IMG/VR virus record: IMGVR_UViG_3300043621_000012
Span: 1 to 25,541 of that record
From: a virus
Reading direction: 5' to 3' (one strand)
Length of the DNA: 25,541 nucleotides
Shown here: positions 5,887 to 25,324 of the stretch, piece by piece
Position numbering within the stretch: the first letter of the stretch is position 1
Layout of the letters: each line of letters begins with the position of its first letter
Translations under genes and position numbers: made by a program
Notes under the pieces: generated by a model
The model's input: the letters and a program-made list of their open reading frames with translations, nothing else
Told to the model about the DNA's origin: nothing
Databases searched by the model: none

Positions 5887-6393
5887 TCAAGATCCCTTGT
5901 CACCAGTGTGCGCATCGGTGTCGACACTGATGTCGACATCAGTGCGGATGCCCGCTGACCTGCGGATGTCGCCCGCTTCGTCGGGTATGTAGCCCGCCGA
6001 GCGCAACCATAGGTCGACCGGCATCTGCTCGACGACGGCACGCCGCAGCTCGGGCGAGCTGACACGCTGCCACTGTCGCCACATGCCGACGATGGCGCTC
6101 GGGTTGCGCGGCGGATCGTGCTTCGTGATCGTGCGAATCAGCAGCTCGGCCGTCTGCTCGTCGACGAGCACGAAGCGCCGTTCGGTCAGCAGGTCGAGCG
6201 CCTTGCCGATCTCGTCGATGTGGACGTGAGCGACGCCCGACTGCCAGCGGCGCGGCGTGAACGGCACGACGCCGAGCAGGTTCCGGTCGGGCGACGACAG
6301 CAGCACGATGTACAGCCACTGCGCCGGCATGTCGAGCTGCCGGAAGTCCGGATCAGACCAGGCGCTCGACTGCACCTTGCCGAACGCAGCCAT
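5887..6393 (-). CDS. Replisome-organizer-like replication protein
   Basis: A 168-residue protein. It begins MAAFGKVQSSAWSDPDFRQL and continues with MPAQWLYIVLLSSPDRNLLGVVPF and a helical region (DEIGKALDLLTERRFVLVDE). This is the pattern of the winged-helix N-terminal domain of phage replisome organizers, which bind origin iterons and recruit the host helicase. The ATG at 6391-6393 follows GAAGGTGG and shares one base with the preceding stop (TGATG). The C-terminus is Asp/Thr-rich and short compared with many organizers, and no helicase-loader domain is evident. Repeats at its 3' end suggest that the origin lies there. No polymerase or helicase is encoded, so host enzymes are presumably used. 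Confidence 0.75.
   Translation of the reverse strand: MAAFGKVQSSAWSDPDFRQLDMPAQWLYIVLLSSPDRNLLGVVPFTPRRWQSGVAHVHIDEIGKALDLLTERRFVLVDEQTAELLIRTITKHDPPRNPSAIVGMWRQWQRVSSPELRRAVVEQMPVDLWLRSAGYIPDEAGDIRRSAGIRTDVDISVDTDAHTGDKGS
5918..5944. repeat. Perfect 20-bp palindrome overlapping a 10-bp palindrome
   Basis: Bases 5925-5944 form a perfect 20-bp palindrome centred on GTCGAC, and GTGTCGACAC (5918-5927) is a second palindrome overlapping it. Both lie in the last codons of the replication gene, coding for an Asp-rich tail (TDVDISVDTDAH), about 40 bases from the tandem repeats. The combination suggests a binding or unwinding element of an origin, although the repeated GTCGA words could also arise from Val-Asp repeats. 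Confidence 0.6.
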
Positions 6394-6575
6394 CAGGCGC
6401 CACCTTCGAGCAGGCGCCCACAGCCGGCACACACGCCGTTCACGTCGGGCGCCGGGTAGTCGCAATCGCACCAGAGCCGCACCGCGTGATAGCCCGAGCG
6501 GATGCACGGCCGGCACAGCTCGGCGACGCACATGCGCCCGCACGCGGCACACGGCGACAGCCGGCGCGTCGTCAC
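6393..6575 (-). CDS. 60-aa Cys-rich zinc-ribbon protein
   Basis: A GTG at 6573-6575 overlaps the previous stop (GTGA). Nine Cys residues are arranged as CAACGRMC, C-P-C-I, CDCDYP and CAGCG, enough for two zinc sites (double zinc ribbon). It overlaps by one base the replication gene that follows, and the two are probably translated together. Function unknown; single-stranded-DNA or RNA-polymerase binding would fit the fold. Confidence 0.75.
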   Translation of the reverse strand: MTTRRLSPCAACGRMCVAELCRPCIRSGYHAVRLWCDCDYPAPDVNGVCAGCGRLLEGGA

Positions 6576-6966: not shown

Positions 6967-7139
6967 GGCTCGCCCGCGTTCGCTTCGCGCCGGGCGATGT
7001 CGCCGTATGCCGACAGGGCGCGGGCTGCCGCGGCGTCTGCCTTCCCGCGTTCGATACGGCGTCTGATCTCGACGCACATCGGGCAGCCGGCGCCGTCGTG
7101 CAGCACGCCGTCGAGCAGGTGATCGTGTTCGAGCGTCAT
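6963..7139 (-). CDS. 58-aa small protein with a CPMC knuckle
   Basis: Begins ATG at 7137-7139, overlapping the previous stop (ATGA), and ends TGA at 6963-6965, overlapping the next GTG. The N-terminus has HDHLLDGVLHDGAGCPMCVEIRRRIERG; the rest is a basic Ala-rich helix. His residues preceding the CPMC could complete a zinc site. The frame exactly fills the space between two well-supported genes, which is the main argument for it. Confidence 0.75.
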   Translation of the reverse strand: MTLEHDHLLDGVLHDGAGCPMCVEIRRRIERGKADAAAARALSAYGDIARREANAGEP

Positions 7140-7636
7140 GTCGGCGACGGCCCGCGTTTGATCACGAGCGGCGCGTCGTCACGCGAGCGGTAGCGGCGCC
7201 AGTCGGGCAGGTGTCGGCGCAGCCCGCCCGTGCGCCACTTCGATGACGTCAGCTCGGGCGCATTGCAGCCGGGCAGCACGTCGACGAGCACGTCGACCGG
7301 CACGGCCTGCACGGGCTCGCCGTCGAAGGTGATCAGCCGCTCGGCTAGCTCGGCGATGACGTCGTGGCCGCGCCAGCGCTCGGGCGCATAGCCGGGCGCC
7401 AGGTGCACGACGTCGCCGTACGCGGTTTCGTAGTCGGCTCGCGGGTCGTCGCGGTCGGCGAGCCGCACGGCCGCGTCGTCGGCGACGAGCTTCATCAGCT
7501 CGCCGAGGGTGCGCTGCACGTGCCCGAGTTCGAGCCACAGCGTCACGACGTCGTCGACGTCGTAGTCGGCCGTGCGCCATTCGCCGTCGATGTCGAGCAG
7601 TGCGTCGAGCACGACGTCGGTACGACTTAGCGCCAT
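7136..7636 (-). CDS. 166-aa early protein of unknown function
   Basis: ATG at 7634-7636 lies 10 bases inside the end of the lipoprotein gene. The first ~60 residues look helical (MALSRTDVVLDALLDIDGEW..., LELGHVQRTLGELMKLVADD); the second half holds LITFDGEPVQAVPVDVLVDVLPGCN and ends in a basic tail (WRRYRSRDDAPLVIKRGPSP). No enzyme motif was recognised. Its place between annealase/lipoprotein and small zinc proteins suggests an accessory role in phage DNA metabolism, by inference only. Confidence 0.75.
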   Translation of the reverse strand: MALSRTDVVLDALLDIDGEWRTADYDVDDVVTLWLELGHVQRTLGELMKLVADDAAVRLADRDDPRADYETAYGDVVHLAPGYAPERWRGHDVIAELAERLITFDGEPVQAVPVDVLVDVLPGCNAPELTSSKWRTGGLRRHLPDWRRYRSRDDAPLVIKRGPSPT

Positions 7637-8082
7637 GGCGCGAGCCCCATGCGTCGGTACGCCGCGGCAGCACACGCGACGTTCGTGTCGGCGTCGGTCA
7701 CGTTCGCCGTCGTCAGCCCGCACCATTCACGCCAGCGCCCGGCGCCGGCCCGCAGGTTGAGCCCGAGCAGCCCGCCCCCGAGGTCGTCGCTGTCGACGAC
7801 GAAGCTCGTGTGATCGCAGCCCGACTCGCGCCGGGCGATCCGCACGAACGTAGCGACGGGCAGCCCGTGCTCGACGAACAGGGGCACATACGACTCGCAG
7901 TCGCCGGGCGTCACCGCGTGCGTCGTCGGCTGATCGGCGAGCAGCGCCTGCCCTTCGGCCGTATCAAGATACGCGATGGCGGCGTCGGGATCGTCGGCGT
8001 GCCAGCCGAGCCACGCCCGCACCTGCGCGGGCGTGCACGCGGTCAGCGGCACGAGCAGTAGCAGCAGCAGCACACGTTTCAC
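7627..8082 (-). CDS. Lipoprotein with lytic-transglycosylase/lysozyme-like domain
   Basis: A 151-residue exported protein. Lys2-Arg3, a run of Leu and the lipobox LTAC (Cys16) form a clear lipoprotein signal peptide. The mature part has IARRESGCDHTS with Glu86 in the position of the catalytic acid of transglycosylase/lysozyme-like domains, then GGGLLGLN, CGL, NVACAAAAYRRMGLAPW, closely paralleling the usual RESG-GLFQI-YGW layout. GTG at 8080-8082 follows AAGGGGG and overlaps the annealase stop. It is unexpected in the middle of a replication operon, far from the lysis genes. It might remodel peptidoglycan during infection or block superinfection at the cell surface, as other phage lipoproteins do. 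Activity is inferred only; downstream transglycosylase motifs are diverged. Confidence 0.8.
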   Translation of the reverse strand: MKRVLLLLLLVPLTACTPAQVRAWLGWHADDPDAAIAYLDTAEGQALLADQPTTHAVTPGDCESYVPLFVEHGLPVATFVRIARRESGCDHTSFVVDSDDLGGGLLGLNLRAGAGRWREWCGLTTANVTDADTNVACAAAAYRRMGLAPWR

Positions 8083-8822
8083 GGGTCGCCCCCTTCGGCG
8101 TCGAGTTCGGCTTGCCGGGCTTCGGCCAGCCATTCGGCGTCGAGCGCGTCTTCGGCGTCGAGCATCTCGGCGGCGATGACATACGCAGGGCGCCCGTCGT
8201 CGTCGGGCTCGTCGATGTCGACGCCGACGTCGATGTAATCGAGCGACGCCGCCGACGTCGAGCCCGCTTCGAGCGGGTCGGCGTCGTAGGCGGGTCGCAG
8301 GTCGAAGCGGGACAGCTCTTCGGGCGTGTAGCCGACCGTGCAGTCGGCGAAGATCAGGCGCGCCAGGCGCGACGTCGCCCGGGCGACGAGCATGTCGGAC
8401 GGGTACTTTTTCCACACGTCCTTGGTCAGCAGCCCGGCGCGCTGTGCGTCGGCAATTTCCCACACGACACGCGCCGAGCCGAGCCCGTCGGCCCGCTTGC
8501 CTTCGACGATGCAGCGCTGCGACGACGTCTCGACGAAGTGCAGAGCGTGCCCGTTGCGGTAGATCAGGGCGCGCATCAGCTTCGCCGAGCACGACGGCGT
8601 GCCTTCGATGATGAAGACTTCGCGCAGCGCCGTCATCGGTCGAAGCCCGAGTTCGTGCCCGTAGACCATGACGGCGAGCGCGGCGTCGGGTCGGCCGCGC
8701 AGCGCCTTCGGGACCATCTCGCTGTGCGTCGTGCGCTGCGCCAGCCGGTACAAGAAGTCCACATGTGCCAGCTCGGGCGATCGCTCGGGCTGCTCGGGCA
8801 CGGCGGGCAGGTCGTCACTCAC
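8079..8822 (-). CDS. RecT-like single-strand annealing protein
   Basis: A 247-residue protein. The segment GHELGLRPMTALREVFIIEGTPSCSAKLMRALI, then a beta-rich stretch, WKKYPSDMLVARATSRLARLIFADCTVGYTPEEL, follows the core of RecT/Redbeta-type annealases, which pair complementary single strands in phage recombination. The last ~60 residues are acidic and probably flexible. GTG at 8820-8822 overlaps the preceding stop (GTGA), and the stop overlaps the lipoprotein start. The possible nuclease encoded immediately upstream would be the expected exonuclease partner. Confidence 0.8.
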   Translation of the reverse strand: MSDDLPAVPEQPERSPELAHVDFLYRLAQRTTHSEMVPKALRGRPDAALAVMVYGHELGLRPMTALREVFIIEGTPSCSAKLMRALIYRNGHALHFVETSSQRCIVEGKRADGLGSARVVWEIADAQRAGLLTKDVWKKYPSDMLVARATSRLARLIFADCTVGYTPEELSRFDLRPAYDADPLEAGSTSAASLDYIDVGVDIDEPDDDGRPAYVIAAEMLDAEDALDAEWLAEARQAELDAEGGDP

Positions 8823-9700: not shown

Positions 9701-9940
9701 CTACAGCTCGAAGGTCGACGTCACGTGACGCAGACGGCGCACGCCGTCGTCGTCTTCGATCAGCTCGATCGGGCGCACGACCTGCTCGACGGTCACGAAG
9801 GCGTGACCGTGCTCGTCGTCGTCGATGATCAGCTCGACGACATGATCGACCGGCACGCCGACGCGGGCGAGCAGGTCGTCGGCGATCCGACGTGCTTCAT
9901 GGTCGCGCCGGTAGCTCTCGACGTCGATCACGCGCCGCAT
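9701..9940 (-). CDS. 79-aa protein of unknown function
   Basis: ATG at 9938-9940, overlapping the previous gene by 13 bases. An N-terminal basic helix (VESYRRDHEARRIADDLLAR) is followed by beta-rich, acidic sequence (VVELIIDDDEHGHAFVTVEQ, later RPIELIEDDD). No family is recognised. Confidence 0.7.
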   Translation of the reverse strand: MRRVIDVESYRRDHEARRIADDLLARVGVPVDHVVELIIDDDEHGHAFVTVEQVVRPIELIEDDDGVRRLRHVTSTFEL

Positions 9941-10161
9941 GGCTGCGCCTTCGGCCCGTCGACGATCAGCTCGAAGCGCAGGTGCCCGCCGACGGCGTCG
10001 ACGTGTCGATCTTCGGCCGCCTGCGTCGTGAAGACGGCGCCGCACGCCATACAGCGCGTGTGATACGGCGCCCGGGCGACCTTGTGCGTCGAGCGTGTCG
10101 ATGCCGGCACGGCGACGCCGAGCGCCTTCGCCTCGGCGCGGGACAGACGGGCCGCGGTCAC
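9928..10161 (-). CDS. 77-aa C2H2-like zinc-finger protein
   Basis: A GTG at 10159-10161 overlaps the stop of the HTH gene (GTGA). It has a basic N-terminus (LSRAEAKALGV), then CMACGAVFTTQAAEDRHVDAVGGHLRFEL, which places CxxC and two His residues as in a C2H2 finger. The protein may bind nucleic acid and is the second gene of the early operon. Confidence 0.75.
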   Translation of the reverse strand: MTAARLSRAEAKALGVAVPASTRSTHKVARAPYHTRCMACGAVFTTQAAEDRHVDAVGGHLRFELIVDGPKAQPCGA

Positions 10162-10433
10162 GACGCGCGGTCGAGATAGGCGTCGATGTCGGCCGGACGC
10201 ACCTTGCGGCGCCCGTTCACGTCGAGCCCGCGCAGCGTGCCTTCGTCGAGCATCCGGCCGACCGTCCAGCGCGACACGCCGAGATACCGGGCGACCTGCT
10301 CGATCGTCATCAGCGGGCGGTTGTCGACGATCATCTTCGTGCGCTCGACCATCCGCTCGCGGCTCGCCGCCTTCGACGCCTTGCGCGCCGTGCCGGTCTG
10401 CGGCTGCGTGTTCCCCCGTGTTCCCTGCACCAT
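10158..10433 (-). CDS. Excisionase-like MerR/HTH_17-type DNA-binding protein
   Basis: A 91-residue protein with an N-terminal Gln/Thr-rich basic stretch, then PLMTIEQVARYLGVSRWTVGRMLDEGTLRGLDVNGRRKVRPADIDAYL, the winged helix-turn-helix of phage excisionases and related DNA-binding proteins. The frame opens earlier (GTG at 10466), but ATG at 10431-10433 is preferred because TACCGT lies exactly 7 bases upstream with TTGCGT 18 bases further, the best leaderless promoter in this genome. As the first gene of the early operon, opposed to the repressor, it may be excisionase, Cro-like regulator or both. Confidence 0.8.
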   Translation of the reverse strand: MVQGTRGNTQPQTGTARKASKAASRERMVERTKMIVDNRPLMTIEQVARYLGVSRWTVGRMLDEGTLRGLDVNGRRKVRPADIDAYLDRAS

Positions 10434-10440
10434 GGTCGCC

Positions 10441-10470
10441 ACGGTAGGCACACGCCAGGCGGGCACGCAA
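10441..10470 (-). promoter_or_regulatory. Early-operon promoter (leaderless)
   Basis: On the minus strand TTGCGT (10465-10470), 18 bases, TACCGT (10441-10446), then 7 bases to the ATG of the HTH gene. This is the best-matched promoter in the window and faces away from the repressor gene. Transcription would begin at or next to the ATG. Confidence 0.6.
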
Positions 10471-14537: not shown

Positions 14538-14810
14538 TCAGGGCGCGTCGGGCGGCGACGGCGGCTCGTCGTCGTCTCGTGCTGCGTGCCCCCGCGACCC
14601 GCGCCCGCCGACGAAGCCGACGATCGCGCCGATGATGACCGACAGCAGGTCGGCGACGTGCTTCGCTTCGTCGGCCGTGTCGGCTGCCGGGTTGACGGCT
14701 TCGACGACGACGATGCCGATCGTCGCCAGCACGATCACGACGCAGACGGTCAGCGCGAGCCCGAGCACGACCAGGTCGACCGTCTCGCGCTTCGACGGGT
14801 CGATCGACAC
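14538..14810 (-). CDS. Holin (two transmembrane segments)
   Basis: A 90-residue membrane protein with hydrophobic segments VDLVVLGLALTVCVVIVLATIGIVVVEAV (~11-39) and LLSVIIGAIVGFVGG (~55-69) and a charged Pro/Asp-rich C-terminal tail. Size, topology and location immediately after the endolysin are as expected for a holin, which opens the membrane so that the endolysin can reach the wall. GTG at 14808-14810 begins 5 bases after the endolysin stop. It is the last gene of the structural and lysis block. Confidence 0.8.
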   Translation of the reverse strand: MSIDPSKRETVDLVVLGLALTVCVVIVLATIGIVVVEAVNPAADTADEAKHVADLLSVIIGAIVGFVGGRGSRGHAARDDDEPPSPPDAP

Positions 14811-14815
14811 GACGC

Positions 14816-15007
14816 CTAGCGCGGCCCCTGCTGCGCGAGCAGGGCGTCGACGTCAGCCTGCGAGTAGGTCTCGACGGGCGCGTCGCTGATCAGCGCGAAG
14901 CGCTGCCCCGCTTCGTCCCATCCGGGCGGCAGGGCGCCGATGCGGACGCCGTCCCACGCGTAGACCGTCGGGTTGTCGCCGCCTTTGATGAGCTGTGCCT
15001 TCGGCAT
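14816..15007 (-). CDS. Possible internally initiated wall-binding fragment of the endolysin
   Basis: Within the endolysin frame ATG at 15005-15007 is preceded at 8 bases by AAGGGG (15016-15021), identical to the strongest ribosome-binding sites in this genome. Translation from it would yield a 63-residue protein containing only the C-terminal domain. Endolysins that use such an internal start to build mixed complexes are known from other phages. That it is used here is inference. Confidence 0.5.
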   Translation of the reverse strand: MPKAQLIKGGDNPTVYAWDGVRIGALPPGWDEAGQRFALISDAPVETYSQADVDALLAQQGPR

Positions 15008-15667
15008 GTCGTCATCCCCTTCGTCGGGTTCGGGTACGTAGCTGCCGCCCGCGGCCCGGGCGATGCATTCGGCGATTACGTCGGACTGCCGCCAGGTGCC
15101 CGACGACGTCGAGCTGCTCGGGCACCATCCGCCCTGCACGGACGTTGCCCGCGCCGGGTCGATCTTGCGGGTCGGCGCCCACGTCTGATGATTGAAGACG
15201 TCGCTCGGCGGGTTCCCGAAGCGGGCATTCAGCGCGTTGCTTCCGGCGAAGTAGGCGTCGACCTGCGCGACCGGCCACGCCTCGCCGACGCCCGAGTTCG
15301 CCGCTTCGATCGCAAACGTGCGGGCGTTCGCGCCGTCGAGCGGGACCGTGCCGCGTGACATGGCGAGCGGCCCGCCCTTCCCGGCCGTGTTCGCGGCGCC
15401 GGCAGCGATCGGCCAATAGCAGCCCGTGCGGTCGAGCAGCAGGTTGCCGACCGGCCCGTCGGGACAGGACACGATCATCCACGACAGGTCGTTCGCCGGG
15501 CTCGTGCTCGACGCCGTGTGATGCCACTGCACGCCGAGCGGCGCCGAAGGGAAGCCGCCCGAGCTTCGTGCTCGACGCTGCCAGCCGTTCGTCGTCGAGT
15601 TCTCGGCGACCCGACAGCCCGCGGCGCGCAGCACGTCGAGCATGTCCGTGTAATACAGCCCGGTCAT
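14816..15667 (-). CDS. Endolysin, N-acetylmuramoyl-L-alanine amidase
   Basis: A 283-residue lysin of the Amidase_2/PGRP type, cutting between MurNAc and the stem peptide. Zinc and catalytic positions: WHHTAS (His49/50), FAIEAAN (Glu121), FNHQTWAPTRKIDP (His160, Lys168, Asp170). A linker rich in Pro/Glu/Asp (~210-220) leads to a ~60-residue C-terminal region (AQLIKGGDNPTVYAWDGVRI to ADVDALL), probably the wall-binding domain. ATG at 15665-15667 follows AAGGGGC and overlaps the previous stop. An internal AAGGGG and ATG at codon 221 could give a separate C-terminal fragment. No signal peptide is evident, so export depends on the holin. Confidence 0.9.
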   Translation of the reverse strand: MTGLYYTDMLDVLRAAGCRVAENSTTNGWQRRARSSGGFPSAPLGVQWHHTASSTSPANDLSWMIVSCPDGPVGNLLLDRTGCYWPIAAGAANTAGKGGPLAMSRGTVPLDGANARTFAIEAANSGVGEAWPVAQVDAYFAGSNALNARFGNPPSDVFNHQTWAPTRKIDPARATSVQGGWCPSSSTSSGTWRQSDVIAECIARAAGGSYVPEPDEGDDDMPKAQLIKGGDNPTVYAWDGVRIGALPPGWDEAGQRFALISDAPVETYSQADVDALLAQQGPR

Positions 15668-21783: not shown

Positions 21784-22256
21784 CAGCCGGCCGCCTTCGT
21801 CATGGCGGCGTCGGATGCCCGCTCGACGACGTCGGACAGCTCGGCGTCGAGCCGGTCGGTCGCCTGCCCCCAGTAGTCGTGTCCGCTCGTCGAGCGGCGA
21901 TGAGCGTGGGCGCCGATGACGTCACCCTTCGCCGCGGCGAGCACGTCGCGCCGGCGCGGCTTGATGTCGTAGGCGCGGTGTCCGCGGGTCACGACCGTCC
22001 ACGGGCCGGCCGGCGCCCCGTACAGCTCGACGACCGACGTGACGGCCGTCGCGGTGACCCGAGACTTGACGCCGAGCCGCGTGCCCATCATGCGCAGCCC
22101 CTTCGGACGCGAGCGGCGCACGTCGTCGAGGATGACGCGTCGCGCTTCGGACGCGACAGCCTTGCCGGCGTCACGCTGTGCCTGCTGTGCGCCCCGTTCG
22201 AGTTCGCGGGCGACGCCTGCCAGGTCAGGGCCGGACTTCGCGACCGTGAAATTCAC
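21783..22256 (-). CDS. HK97 gp10-like head-tail/neck protein (tentative)
   Basis: A 157-residue protein. An N-terminal helical stretch (LAGVARELERGAQQAQRDAG) is followed by SVVELYGAPAGPWTVVTRGHRAYDIKPRRRDVLAAAKGD, reminiscent of the WxWxxxGT-H-IxPR core of HK97 gp10-type proteins. Those usually lie between connector and major tail protein, whereas this one lies between major tail protein and tape measure, where tail-assembly chaperones normally are. ATG at 22254-22256. The assignment is moderate. Confidence 0.6.
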   Translation of the reverse strand: MNFTVAKSGPDLAGVARELERGAQQAQRDAGKAVASEARRVILDDVRRSRPKGLRMMGTRLGVKSRVTATAVTSVVELYGAPAGPWTVVTRGHRAYDIKPRRRDVLAAAKGDVIGAHAHRRSTSGHDYWGQATDRLDAELSDVVERASDAAMTKAAG

Positions 22257-22260
22257 ACGG

Positions 22261-23022
22261 TCACGGCCCCTTGCCCGTCGCCCATGCCGTGCCCGACCAG
22301 TGCATCTCGCCGCCCGTGCCGGCCGTCGAGCCCTGCACGTACTGACCGGTCGTCCACGCGCTGGCGGGCGATGCGGTGACGCCTGCCGACGTCGCGCCGG
22401 CAGCGTTCGCGGGTGGCGTCGAGCCCGACGGCGTCCACGTGCCAGGCGTGCCCGCGGTGGCGCCCGTCGCAGCCGTCGAGCCGGCGCCCGTGATCACGCG
22501 GTTTGTCGTCGCGTTCCCGACCCACATGTCGGGCTTACGCGTGACGGGCAGCGACAGCGTCGCCGTCAGCGTCACGCGGGCGTCGCCGCCGAAGGCGCCG
22601 GCCACGATGCGCGCACGGCCGATCGCAGCGGGCGGGTTCCCGTCGCCGTTCAGCCCGAGATAGAAGTACGCCTCGCGGGTGTCGTGCTCGAACAGGTACG
22701 CGGTTACGGCGTCGAAGGTCGGGTCCTGCAAGACGGTCGCGTCGAGTGAGTAGCTCGTGACGCCGACCGACGTCGTCGTGACTTCCGGCCCGCAGAATGT
22801 CGCGGGCGTCGTGTCGGTCGTCGTGTTCGGCGACGCGGTCAGCGCGGCCGACGTGACCTGACATGACAGGTCTTCGCCGGTCGCTGCGCTCGCCGTGTAG
22901 TCGGCGATCGTGACGGTGTCGACGCCTACGCCGCCCGGCGCCTGCCATGCGGCGTCGTCGCCCGAGCCGACGAGCGTCAGCGCCAGCACGCCGTTTTCGA
23001 TCTTGAAGACGTTGCTACTCAC
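22261..23022 (-). CDS. Major tail protein with C-terminal appended domain
   Basis: A 253-residue tube subunit. The N-terminal ~190 residues are beta-rich (VFKIENGVLALTLVGSG, SYSLDATVLQDPTFDAVTAY, REAYFYLGLNGDGNPPAAIG, ARVTLTATLSLPV), the usual tail-tube fold. The last ~60 residues (PGTWTPSG to SGTAWATG) form a separate module, also present in the 95-aa protein at 23803-24090, and are likely displayed on the outside of the tail. GTG at 23020-23022 overlaps the terminator gene stop and has GAAGGGGC upstream. Confidence 0.85.
   Translation of the reverse strand: MSSNVFKIENGVLALTLVGSGDDAAWQAPGGVGVDTVTIADYTASAATGEDLSCQVTSAALTASPNTTTDTTPATFCGPEVTTTSVGVTSYSLDATVLQDPTFDAVTAYLFEHDTREAYFYLGLNGDGNPPAAIGRARIVAGAFGGDARVTLTATLSLPVTRKPDMWVGNATTNRVITGAGSTAATGATAGTPGTWTPSGSTPPANAAGATSAGVTASPASAWTTGQYVQGSTAGTGGEMHWSGTAWATGKGP
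22333..22359. repeat. 27-bp direct repeat, copy in major tail gene
   Basis: These 27 bases recur exactly and in the same orientation at 23875-23901, inside the related domain of the 95-aa gene. Surrounding sequence is similar but diverged. Confidence 0.9.
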
Positions 23023-24097: not shown

Positions 24098-25324
24098 TCA
24101 CGCCTTGGTGATCTTGACGATGCCGGTCGGCTGCAAGATCGGCAGCGCGAAGTGCCCCGCGTAGGCGACCTGCGTGCCGAGCACGGACGGCTCGACGACC
24201 TGCAACGCGCCGATCCGATCCTCGTAGCACTCGACCGCGTTCGAGCTGATCACGAGCGCGGTGCCGGCCGCCAGGGCGCCCGACACGACAGGCGTGATAC
24301 CCGAGATCGACGGCGCCGGCCCTTCGCCGAAGAGCCCGGCCGACATGCCGGCCGACTGCGAGTTCTGCGGGTTGACGCCCGGGAAGAGCGGCCCGAGCAG
24401 CCCGAGCATGTCGGGCGCCACCGCGAGGACCAGTCGGCCCATCGGCGTGCGTGCCGTCCACATGTTGCCGAACACGAGCCCCGCCGCGGCCCACAGCGCC
24501 GCGGCGATGTTGTCGGCTGTCGGCGCCGCGGGGATCGTCGGCCCGGCCGTCGCGGCCGCGGTGAGATCGACGCCCGTCGCCTCTTCGGTCTCGAATGCAT
24601 ATTCGGATGTCAGGTCGGCGATCACGATATCGAGCACCTGCGGGACGGACCAGTCCACGTTTTGACGAGAAATATTCACGTAGCCGCCATATGTGTCGCC
24701 GTCGAGCGCGATCTTGTCGATCACCATTTTGCGACTTGCCAGCTCGGTCTTCTCGGCAGATTGTTTCGAAACTGAAGTATGTTGCGTCACCCGCGGGCGC
24801 GACCAGCTACCGGCCGGAAGCTGCTGCACGCCGATCGCCGTCACGAGCGGGCGACCGAAGTCGAGACTCTGCAAGATCGGCCCGAGCAGCCGCTCGGGCA
24901 GCAAGCCCGGGTTATCGCTCGTCGTCTGATGCGCGGCGGCGCGGTGATACACGTCGAGCCGACGCACGACGTCTTCGTCGTGGGACAGGTGAGCGCGAAT
25001 GTGATCGCGCATGTACTCGCCAGCCGACCGGTACTCGATCGACGTCGGCAGGTTCGCCGGGTTACGGGCCGCGGCGAAGGCTTCGGTCAGCTCTTGCGTG
25101 CGACGTGTCGACTCGACGGCGATACGGGCGCCGTCGCGCAGCGGCACGAGCTGCTGCTCGATCGCCGTCATGCGCTCGGCGGCGCGCGTGTACAGCGCCA
25201 TTTCCTGCTCGTTCAGGTCGCGCCTAGCTTCCTGCGCCGACTCGACGAGCTGATCTTGGAACGCGCGGCGCTCTTCGAGTTCGGATTGCAGCCGCGCGAG
25301 CATCGCGTCTTGTGCGCCGGGCAT
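24098..25324 (-). CDS. HK97-fold major capsid protein
   Basis: A 408-residue capsid subunit. Residues ~1-115 form a helical/coiled-coil delta domain (LARLQSELEERRAFQDQLVE onwards), presumably removed by the prohead protease and acting as built-in scaffold. The mature part follows the phage_capsid pattern: LVTAIGVQQLPAGSWSRPRV, YGGYVNISRQNVDWS, then the AAALWAAAGLVFGN/LVLAVAPDMLGLLG region, and final YEDRIGALQVVEPS to GIVKITKA. ATG at 25322-25324 has AAGGGGGC upstream. It is expressed after portal and protease through the circle junction, with a 108-base gap. Confidence 0.93.
   Translation of the reverse strand: MPGAQDAMLARLQSELEERRAFQDQLVESAQEARRDLNEQEMALYTRAAERMTAIEQQLVPLRDGARIAVESTRRTQELTEAFAAARNPANLPTSIEYRSAGEYMRDHIRAHLSHDEDVVRRLDVYHRAAAHQTTSDNPGLLPERLLGPILQSLDFGRPLVTAIGVQQLPAGSWSRPRVTQHTSVSKQSAEKTELASRKMVIDKIALDGDTYGGYVNISRQNVDWSVPQVLDIVIADLTSEYAFETEEATGVDLTAAATAGPTIPAAPTADNIAAALWAAAGLVFGNMWTARTPMGRLVLAVAPDMLGLLGPLFPGVNPQNSQSAGMSAGLFGEGPAPSISGITPVVSGALAAGTALVISSNAVECYEDRIGALQVVEPSVLGTQVAYAGHFALPILQPTGIVKITKA

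Follow-up and report, generated by a model that had tools for sequence, protein, structure and literature searches.

A predicted lipid-anchored protein of the lysozyme superfamily encoded next to a RecT-like gene in an environmental phage genome

Introduction

The enzymes with which phages attack the bacterial cell wall are usually viewed as tools for entry, when borne by the tail, or for exit, when they act as endolysins. The locus described here raises the question of what purpose a wall-acting lipoprotein might serve when its gene is embedded among genes for DNA replication. The window, that is, the whole stretch of DNA analysed, is a viral contig of 25,541 nucleotides (IMG/VR record IMGVR_UViG_3300043621_000012). 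A short gene adjoining that for a RecT-like annealing protein had been predicted, from the sequence alone, to encode an exported transglycosylase-like lipoprotein which might block superinfecting phages or soften the wall.

Results and discussion

The lipoprotein gene and its operon

The open reading frame was found exactly at 7627-8082, as originally predicted, and on the minus strand (8082 to 7627), a point on which the original prediction was silent; the plus-strand reading of this interval is interrupted by a stop. The gene and its surroundings comprise the following features, all on the minus strand.

7627..8082, minus: lipoprotein with a lysozyme-superfamily domain, 151 aa, GTG start (open reading frame, 13-member family, structure models)
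8035..8082, minus: predicted signal peptide and lipobox, residues 1-16, with KR n-region and Leu-rich h-region (sequence)
7963..8037, minus: anchor/linker module, residues 16-40, CTPAQVRAWLGWHADDPDAAIAYLD (same module in other viral lipoproteins)
7633..7899, minus: predicted lysozyme-like catalytic domain, residues 62-150 (AlphaFold model, Foldseek, profile match)
7825..7827, minus: putative catalytic Glu86 codon, in RESGC (invariant in 13/13; catalytic-Glu column of SLT-type and lysozyme-type alignments)
8089..8095, minus: ribosome-binding-site-like AAGGGGG within the 3' end of the RecT gene and 6 nt upstream of the GTG (sequence)
8079..8822, minus: RecT-like ssDNA annealing protein (phrog_4171, E 2.9e-29; actinophage RecT matches)
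7136..7636, minus: next gene of the operon, 166 aa, function unknown, overlapping the lipoprotein stop (sequence)
5887..6456, minus: replication initiation protein, same operon (phrog_8064, E 2e-29)
10158..10466, minus: HTH_17/excisionase-like protein at the operon head (PF12728, E 1e-11; phrog_66)
14816..15667, minus: endolysin (Amidase_2), a separate lysis gene about 6.7 kb off (PF01510, E 2e-9; phrog_880)
14538..14810, minus: small membrane protein adjoining the endolysin, holin candidate (sequence and position only)

The end of the RecT-like gene, whose identity was correctly foreseen, overlaps the lipoprotein start by four bases (GTGA, 8082-8079), and the TAA of the lipoprotein gene in turn overlaps the ATG of the gene that follows (ATGGCGCTAA, 7636-7627). 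Because of these overlapping ends and starts, and of the ribosome-site-like run, the three genes are taken to form one tightly packed unit. The operon as a whole extends from the HTH_17/excisionase-like gene (10466-10158) through recT to the gene for the replication initiation protein (6456-5887); a scan of it for promoters and terminators recognised none, and searches for Rfam families and tRNAs across the window gave no match. The lysis cassette at 14538-15667, consisting of the endolysin gene and the holin candidate (the latter with no PHROG match), is separated from the early operon by an integrase gene (14320-13181) and a repressor block of opposite orientation, which bears out the claim that the lipoprotein gene is coupled to recT and not to lysis genes. 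The 166-aa protein encoded downstream of the lipoprotein likewise had no PHROG match; a relative 47% identical to it is encoded in the related viral record L002, where its gene does not adjoin that for the lipoprotein.

The lipoprotein begins with VKRVLLLLLLVPLTAC and continues, after the lipobox cleavage point, with TPAQVRAWLGWHADDPDAAIAYL. The KR n-region, the hydrophobic stretch, and the residues L13-T14-A15-C16, which agree with the lipobox pattern [LVI][ASTVI][GAS]C and place cleavage between LTA and C16, are those of a signal peptidase II lipoprotein. Given this lipobox, which is kept in most relatives, the protein is predicted to be exported and lipidated, as originally proposed. Its middle portion runs from YVPLFVEHGL through VRIARRE86SGC and VVDSDDL to GGGLLGLN, the C-terminal part is CAAAAYRRMGLAPWR, and the final residues are NVACAAAAYRRMGLAPWR. 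The Glu of RESGC is residue 86 (codon GAG, 7827-7825), again as predicted.

A family of viral relatives

On its own the window protein had no credible match in Pfam, PHROGs, NCBIfam or the PDB sequences, and no Pfam family reached E<=1, which is why a family of viral relatives was built. This started from the protein of L002 (64%), continued with a scan of the DNA of viral contigs for coded R-I-A-x-R-E-S-G-C, and was completed by an alignment-based scan. The resulting family has 13 distinct viral members, the window protein included. Ten residues are invariant in all 13 (E86, C62, C89, C121, C137, D100, G107, N109, W117 and W150), and the lipobox cysteine is kept in 11, being absent from L020 and L040:5830. 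Comparison of the window gene with that of L002 gave dN 0.27 against dS 1.15, as expected under purifying selection. That E86 and the cysteines are kept in the 13 viral members, and that dN lies well below dS, indicates that the window gene is more than a chance reading frame.

Searches beyond these environmental viruses were unproductive at the sensitivity applied. The proteins of L002, L014, L020 and L029, used as queries against isolate phages, found nothing, and neither did the window protein against plasmids; tblastn matches to isolate phages (Microbacterium phage IndyLu gp27 and a Mycobacterium phage gp36) were weak and partial, their translations contain no related domain, and they were set aside as chance. 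Two scans of prokaryote contigs, with one genome per species, revealed no relative; since they were keyed on short exact peptide patterns, cellular homologues may still exist. An actinobacterial host is likely, because many of the isolates with relatives of the RecT-like protein are actinophages, and a Thermobifida phage has the closest one. No description of such an anchored enzyme family was found in the literature covered, most subscription journals and preprints lying outside that coverage.

A divergent lysozyme-superfamily domain

The structure comparison envisaged in the original prediction favours a lysozyme-like fold. An AlphaFold model of the catalytic domain, based on 17 related sequences, had a mean pLDDT of 92.8 and a pTM of 0.83, and shows the expected helix ending in the putative catalytic Glu, followed by a beta-hairpin and further helices. 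When compared with the PDB by Foldseek, its neighbours were MltE, Slt, hen lysozyme and alpha-lactalbumin, with a probability of about 1.0 and a TM-score on the query of up to 0.76, at E-values of 0.006-0.1, so 6e-3 at best. An earlier model of the full-length protein (pLDDT 72) had the same PDB neighbours, and its neighbours in BFVD were phage SLT-domain proteins. A profile of the family (alignment A3) run against all PDB sequences matched alpha-lactalbumin at E 4e-4 and c-type lysozyme more weakly; in the profile alignment E86 falls in the catalytic-Glu column of lysozyme, and C121 and C137 coincide with the two columns of one disulfide of lysozyme, which we take to be C76-C94 in hen lysozyme numbering. 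Comparison by hhalign gave 99.7% to the SLT-type sister lipoproteins described below and 98.7% to secreted SLT relatives; three of the sister lipoproteins, and some of the secreted relatives, pass the Pfam SLT cut-off. Two larger alignments, A4 (26 rows) and A5 (25 rows), in which the GLLQ/GLLG motif was mis-registered, were left out of the folding. Because family conservation, profile comparisons, the AlphaFold model and its Foldseek neighbours all agree, the predicted membership of the lysozyme superfamily is strongly supported.

The label transglycosylase-like therefore stands as a statement about the superfamily, and fails as an assignment to the SLT family. The ES motif with the catalytic Glu is present, as RE86SGC, in 13/13 members, but the window protein does not reach the gathering score of PF01464, as the sister lipoproteins do, and it lacks the Gln of SLT motif II. 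This motif is GL[LM]Q in SLT enzymes and in the sisters, all of the SLT-type sisters having the Gln, whereas the window family has GLLG, GLFG or variants of the type SRFG; Gly107 stands in place of Gln in 13/13, and Asn109 is equally invariant. MltE of Escherichia coli, the top structural neighbour, is likewise a lipoprotein, a lytic transglycosylase of the same fold with its catalytic Glu at a helix end, but it is a cellular protein with only about 18-20% identity to the window domain. Enzymes of the MltE type are anchored in the outer membrane of Gram-negative bacteria, and belong to the SLT superfamily with the motif II Gln.

The c-type lysozyme/alpha-lactalbumin family (PF00062, GH22) provides the best sequence-profile match, and shares the Glu column, one disulfide position and the overall fold; however, the Pfam model does not match the window protein, and of the four disulfides only C121-C137 finds an equivalent, C62 and C89 having no lysozyme counterpart. 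As to the GH22 catalytic pair, in alignment and model Glu35 corresponds to E86, and the Asp pair D97/D100 (D100 being invariant) is predicted to lie in the turn of the beta-hairpin, as a candidate counterpart of Asp52 that is one or two residues off that column. The Rpf-type domain PF06737 (Transglycosylas) gave no match either. Judged on its alignments, the family is thus a divergent branch of the lysozyme superfamily with a Gln-less site, matched by no Pfam, PHROG or NCBIfam model. The window domain is likely to be catalytically active, although its chemistry may be altered or weak, since the motif II Gln is replaced by Gly in every member.

It has also to be considered that the fold might be catalytically dead or serve only for binding, holding wall fragments or inhibiting something. 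Alpha-lactalbumin, which has the lysozyme fold and has lost lysozyme activity, would be the model for this; it is the best PDB sequence match, and the motif II Gln is lost in all 13 members. In the alignment, however, alpha-lactalbumin has T at the catalytic position, where all 13 viral proteins have Glu, and the window gene is under purifying selection; a dead enzyme is therefore regarded as very improbable.

One anchor, several catalytic domains

The segment that follows the lipobox, CTPxxxxxWxxWHxxDPxAAxxF, is an anchor common to other viral lipoproteins. Viral contigs were scanned for coded W..WH..DP.AA and all matches were inspected. Every match preceded by a lipobox ends in a lysozyme-superfamily domain, which is of the window type, the Rpf type or the SLT type; matches without a lipobox were unrelated proteins. 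The Rpf type (PF06737) was found at seven loci: L082, L085, L086, L103, L106 and L108 (E 1e-17 to 3e-29), and L040 (4e-18). These proteins have the identical CTP-WH-DPAA anchor plan, predicted export and a glycosidase domain, but this domain is not that of the window protein. The SLT type (PF01464 and/or SLT_3) was found at four loci: L089, L091, L101 and, weakly, L088. Weak matches of the anchor region to DUF4880 and MTB_hemophore were judged to be chance likenesses of a short helix.

As one anchor has been joined to three different wall-cutting domains, cleavage of glycan would appear to be the conserved property, and selection thus seems to keep an anchored glycan cutter rather than one given domain. 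What is surprising is this domain-swapping anchored family, together with its linkage to recT; exported lysozyme-superfamily enzymes of phages are already known.

Recurrent linkage to recT

A window-type gene lies on the same strand as a gene for this type of RecT in all seven of the records that have that RecT, at distances of 0, 0.3, 0.3, 0.4, 1.0, 1.2 and 4.1 kb. Compared with random placement, the linkage gave a Fisher p of 1.6e-4 with six independent records. The early-module location claimed for the window gene is therefore real and recurrent. In L002, L026, L027 and L028 the early operon opens with an HTH_17/excisionase-like gene, which the window-type gene follows directly or one gene further on; L027 has genes for an exonuclease and a DNA polymerase downstream, L026 one for a RecE-like exonuclease and L034 one for a replication initiator. 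An Amidase_2 endolysin gene is located elsewhere in 12/12 of the records that have one.

The Rpf-type lipoprotein gene of L106 overlaps by four bases a gene for a RecT of another family (phrog_148, E 1e-41), and the SLT-type genes L196/L197 have a phrog_148-type recT 1.0-1.3 kb upstream. Since other types of domain are here paired with another RecT family, the coupling to RecT would seem to have been re-made, or kept, with different catalytic domains and different RecTs. Early timing does not extend to the superfamily in general, because the SLT-type gene L101:7663-8136 lies between those for the prohead protease and the major capsid protein, an odd site for a wall enzyme, and those of L089 and L091 are near lysis genes.

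Proposed role and alternatives

The reading preferred here, which is given about an even chance of being right, is that the lipoprotein is a peptidoglycan glycosidase which is made early, is tethered to the membrane and conditions the wall of the host, most likely helping the late amidase endolysin. It would be exported by the Sec system and processed by signal peptidase II to become a lipoprotein on the outside of the host's cytoplasmic membrane, where the CTP..WH..DP.A module, as a short helical stalk, would hold the domain near the membrane, at the inner side of the wall, by nascent peptidoglycan. With E86 as acid/base it would cut glycan strands locally, either as hydrolase or as transglycosylase. 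As a product of the replication operon it should accumulate early, so that the wall might be loosened or turned over locally during infection, and the host not killed; at the end of infection it might act together with the late amidase endolysin, as is thought for kayvirus Tgl. The main reason for preferring a wall-directed role is that the anchor is constant while the catalytic domain is exchanged.

Kayvirus Tgl is a secreted enzyme with a PF06737 domain and an early-type promoter, which destroys staphylococcal walls without causing premature lysis and has been proposed as a helper of LysK (PMC7150955). Like the protein proposed here, it is encoded by a phage, exported and directed at wall glycans; its domain belongs to the lysozyme superfamily, its expression is of the early type, and it is distinct from the principal endolysin (PMC7150955). 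It differs in having a type-I signal peptide and no lipid anchor, a domain of the Rpf/IsaA type, and a gene close to lysK within the lytic module, whereas the window gene is outside any lytic module, with the integrase gene and repressor block intervening.

The lipoprotein might instead exclude superinfecting phages, as the original prediction suggested, an early surface protein stopping incoming phages through altered wall glycans or by binding to their tails (tape measure). This is possible, if on the unlikely side. The protein would be in the right place, and there is a precedent in Ltp of phage TP-J34, a phage lipoprotein at the host surface that prevents the injection of DNA and has the tape measure protein as its target (PMC3952083); phage-excluding proteins also exist in mycobacteriophages, one example being Fruitloop gp52 (cited in PMC7474061). 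In G003 and G011, both of them records with a family member, tail-like proteins of about 990 aa contain the same lysozyme-type domain, so that competition for a wall site can be imagined. Ltp, however, is no enzyme, has another fold, and is encoded in the lysogeny module and expressed from the prophage (PMC3952083), whereas the window gene lies between recT and a gene of unknown function in the early replication operon. None of the window's own tail proteins matched the lysozyme-type domain, about half of the 24 records with anchored enzymes show no integrase (many of them are fragments), and the invariant catalytic Glu would be superfluous in a protein that only binds. Exclusion is thus unsupported so far, the data pointing to no phage target, and softening of the wall, the other effect originally suggested, appears to be the better fit, given three different wall-cutting domains on the same anchor.

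A further proposal is that the enzyme trims glycans in the manner of Rpf, allowing slow or dormant actinobacterial hosts to resume growth and so to support phage replication. The anchor shared with viral Rpf-type proteins, the overlap of one such gene with recT in L106, and the occurrence of an Rpf-type gene beside a window-type gene in two records (G011 and G013) would all agree with this, as would the induction of Rhodococcus rpf genes on infection by phage WC1 (PMC10986025). Nevertheless, the window protein has no Rpf domain, to our knowledge Rpf biology is established for cellular proteins only, and the literature covered, which again did not include most subscription journals and preprints, yielded no paper on rpf genes of phages. 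Resuscitation is considered improbable.

A broader view of the family would be that actinophages possess an early, membrane-tethered class of protein in which one anchor carries interchangeable Rpf, SLT or Gln-less domains, coupled to RecT, and which serves to re-shape the wall rather than to lyse it, excluding other phages or reviving slow hosts; stated in this general form, the idea is unlikely. Were it true that a lipid-anchored wall enzyme is made together with the replication proteins, this would constitute a third, mid-infection use of such enzymes, and the family would offer a testable set of proteins for work on lysis timing, superinfection exclusion and phage-driven resuscitation in actinobacteria. 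The anchored relatives in other environmental viruses suggest an undescribed early action of phages on the host wall.

Additional observations

Wall enzymes of the Rpf type and the window type are encoded side by side at L040:5333-6228 and in G011 around 74236-74864. Secreted SLT-type enzymes are encoded in many viral contigs (loci L043-L072), and in L043, L044, L049, L060, L064, L068 and L072 a peptidoglycan-binding-like segment precedes the catalytic domain. In the tail-like proteins of L074 (G003, 22133-22285) and of G011 (47385-47513) there is the same lysozyme-type block of motifs as in the lipoprotein of that virus, that of L074 reading YRESHW..DSDDVGGGLLGIN. The notion that the lipoprotein mimics the tail lysozyme of its own phage was rejected as a general explanation, since the tail domain is present in only two of 14 records.

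Within the window, the prohead protease gene stands at the start of the contig (16-678) and the major capsid gene at its end (24098-25324). As these genes are normally consecutive, the contig has the appearance of an almost complete genome, circularly permuted and about 25.6 kb long, from a small temperate siphovirus. A short Glu-Pro repeat frame (EPEPEPEP) lies at 2144-2305 on the plus strand, between the genes for the terminase and the portal protein; it may be no more than a simple repeat. A small early protein encoded at 9928-10161 contains a zinc-finger-like Cys-x2-Cys...His motif (YHTRCMACGAVFTTQAAEDRHVDAVGGH), and L002 encodes, at the corresponding place in its operon, a protein 73% identical to it.
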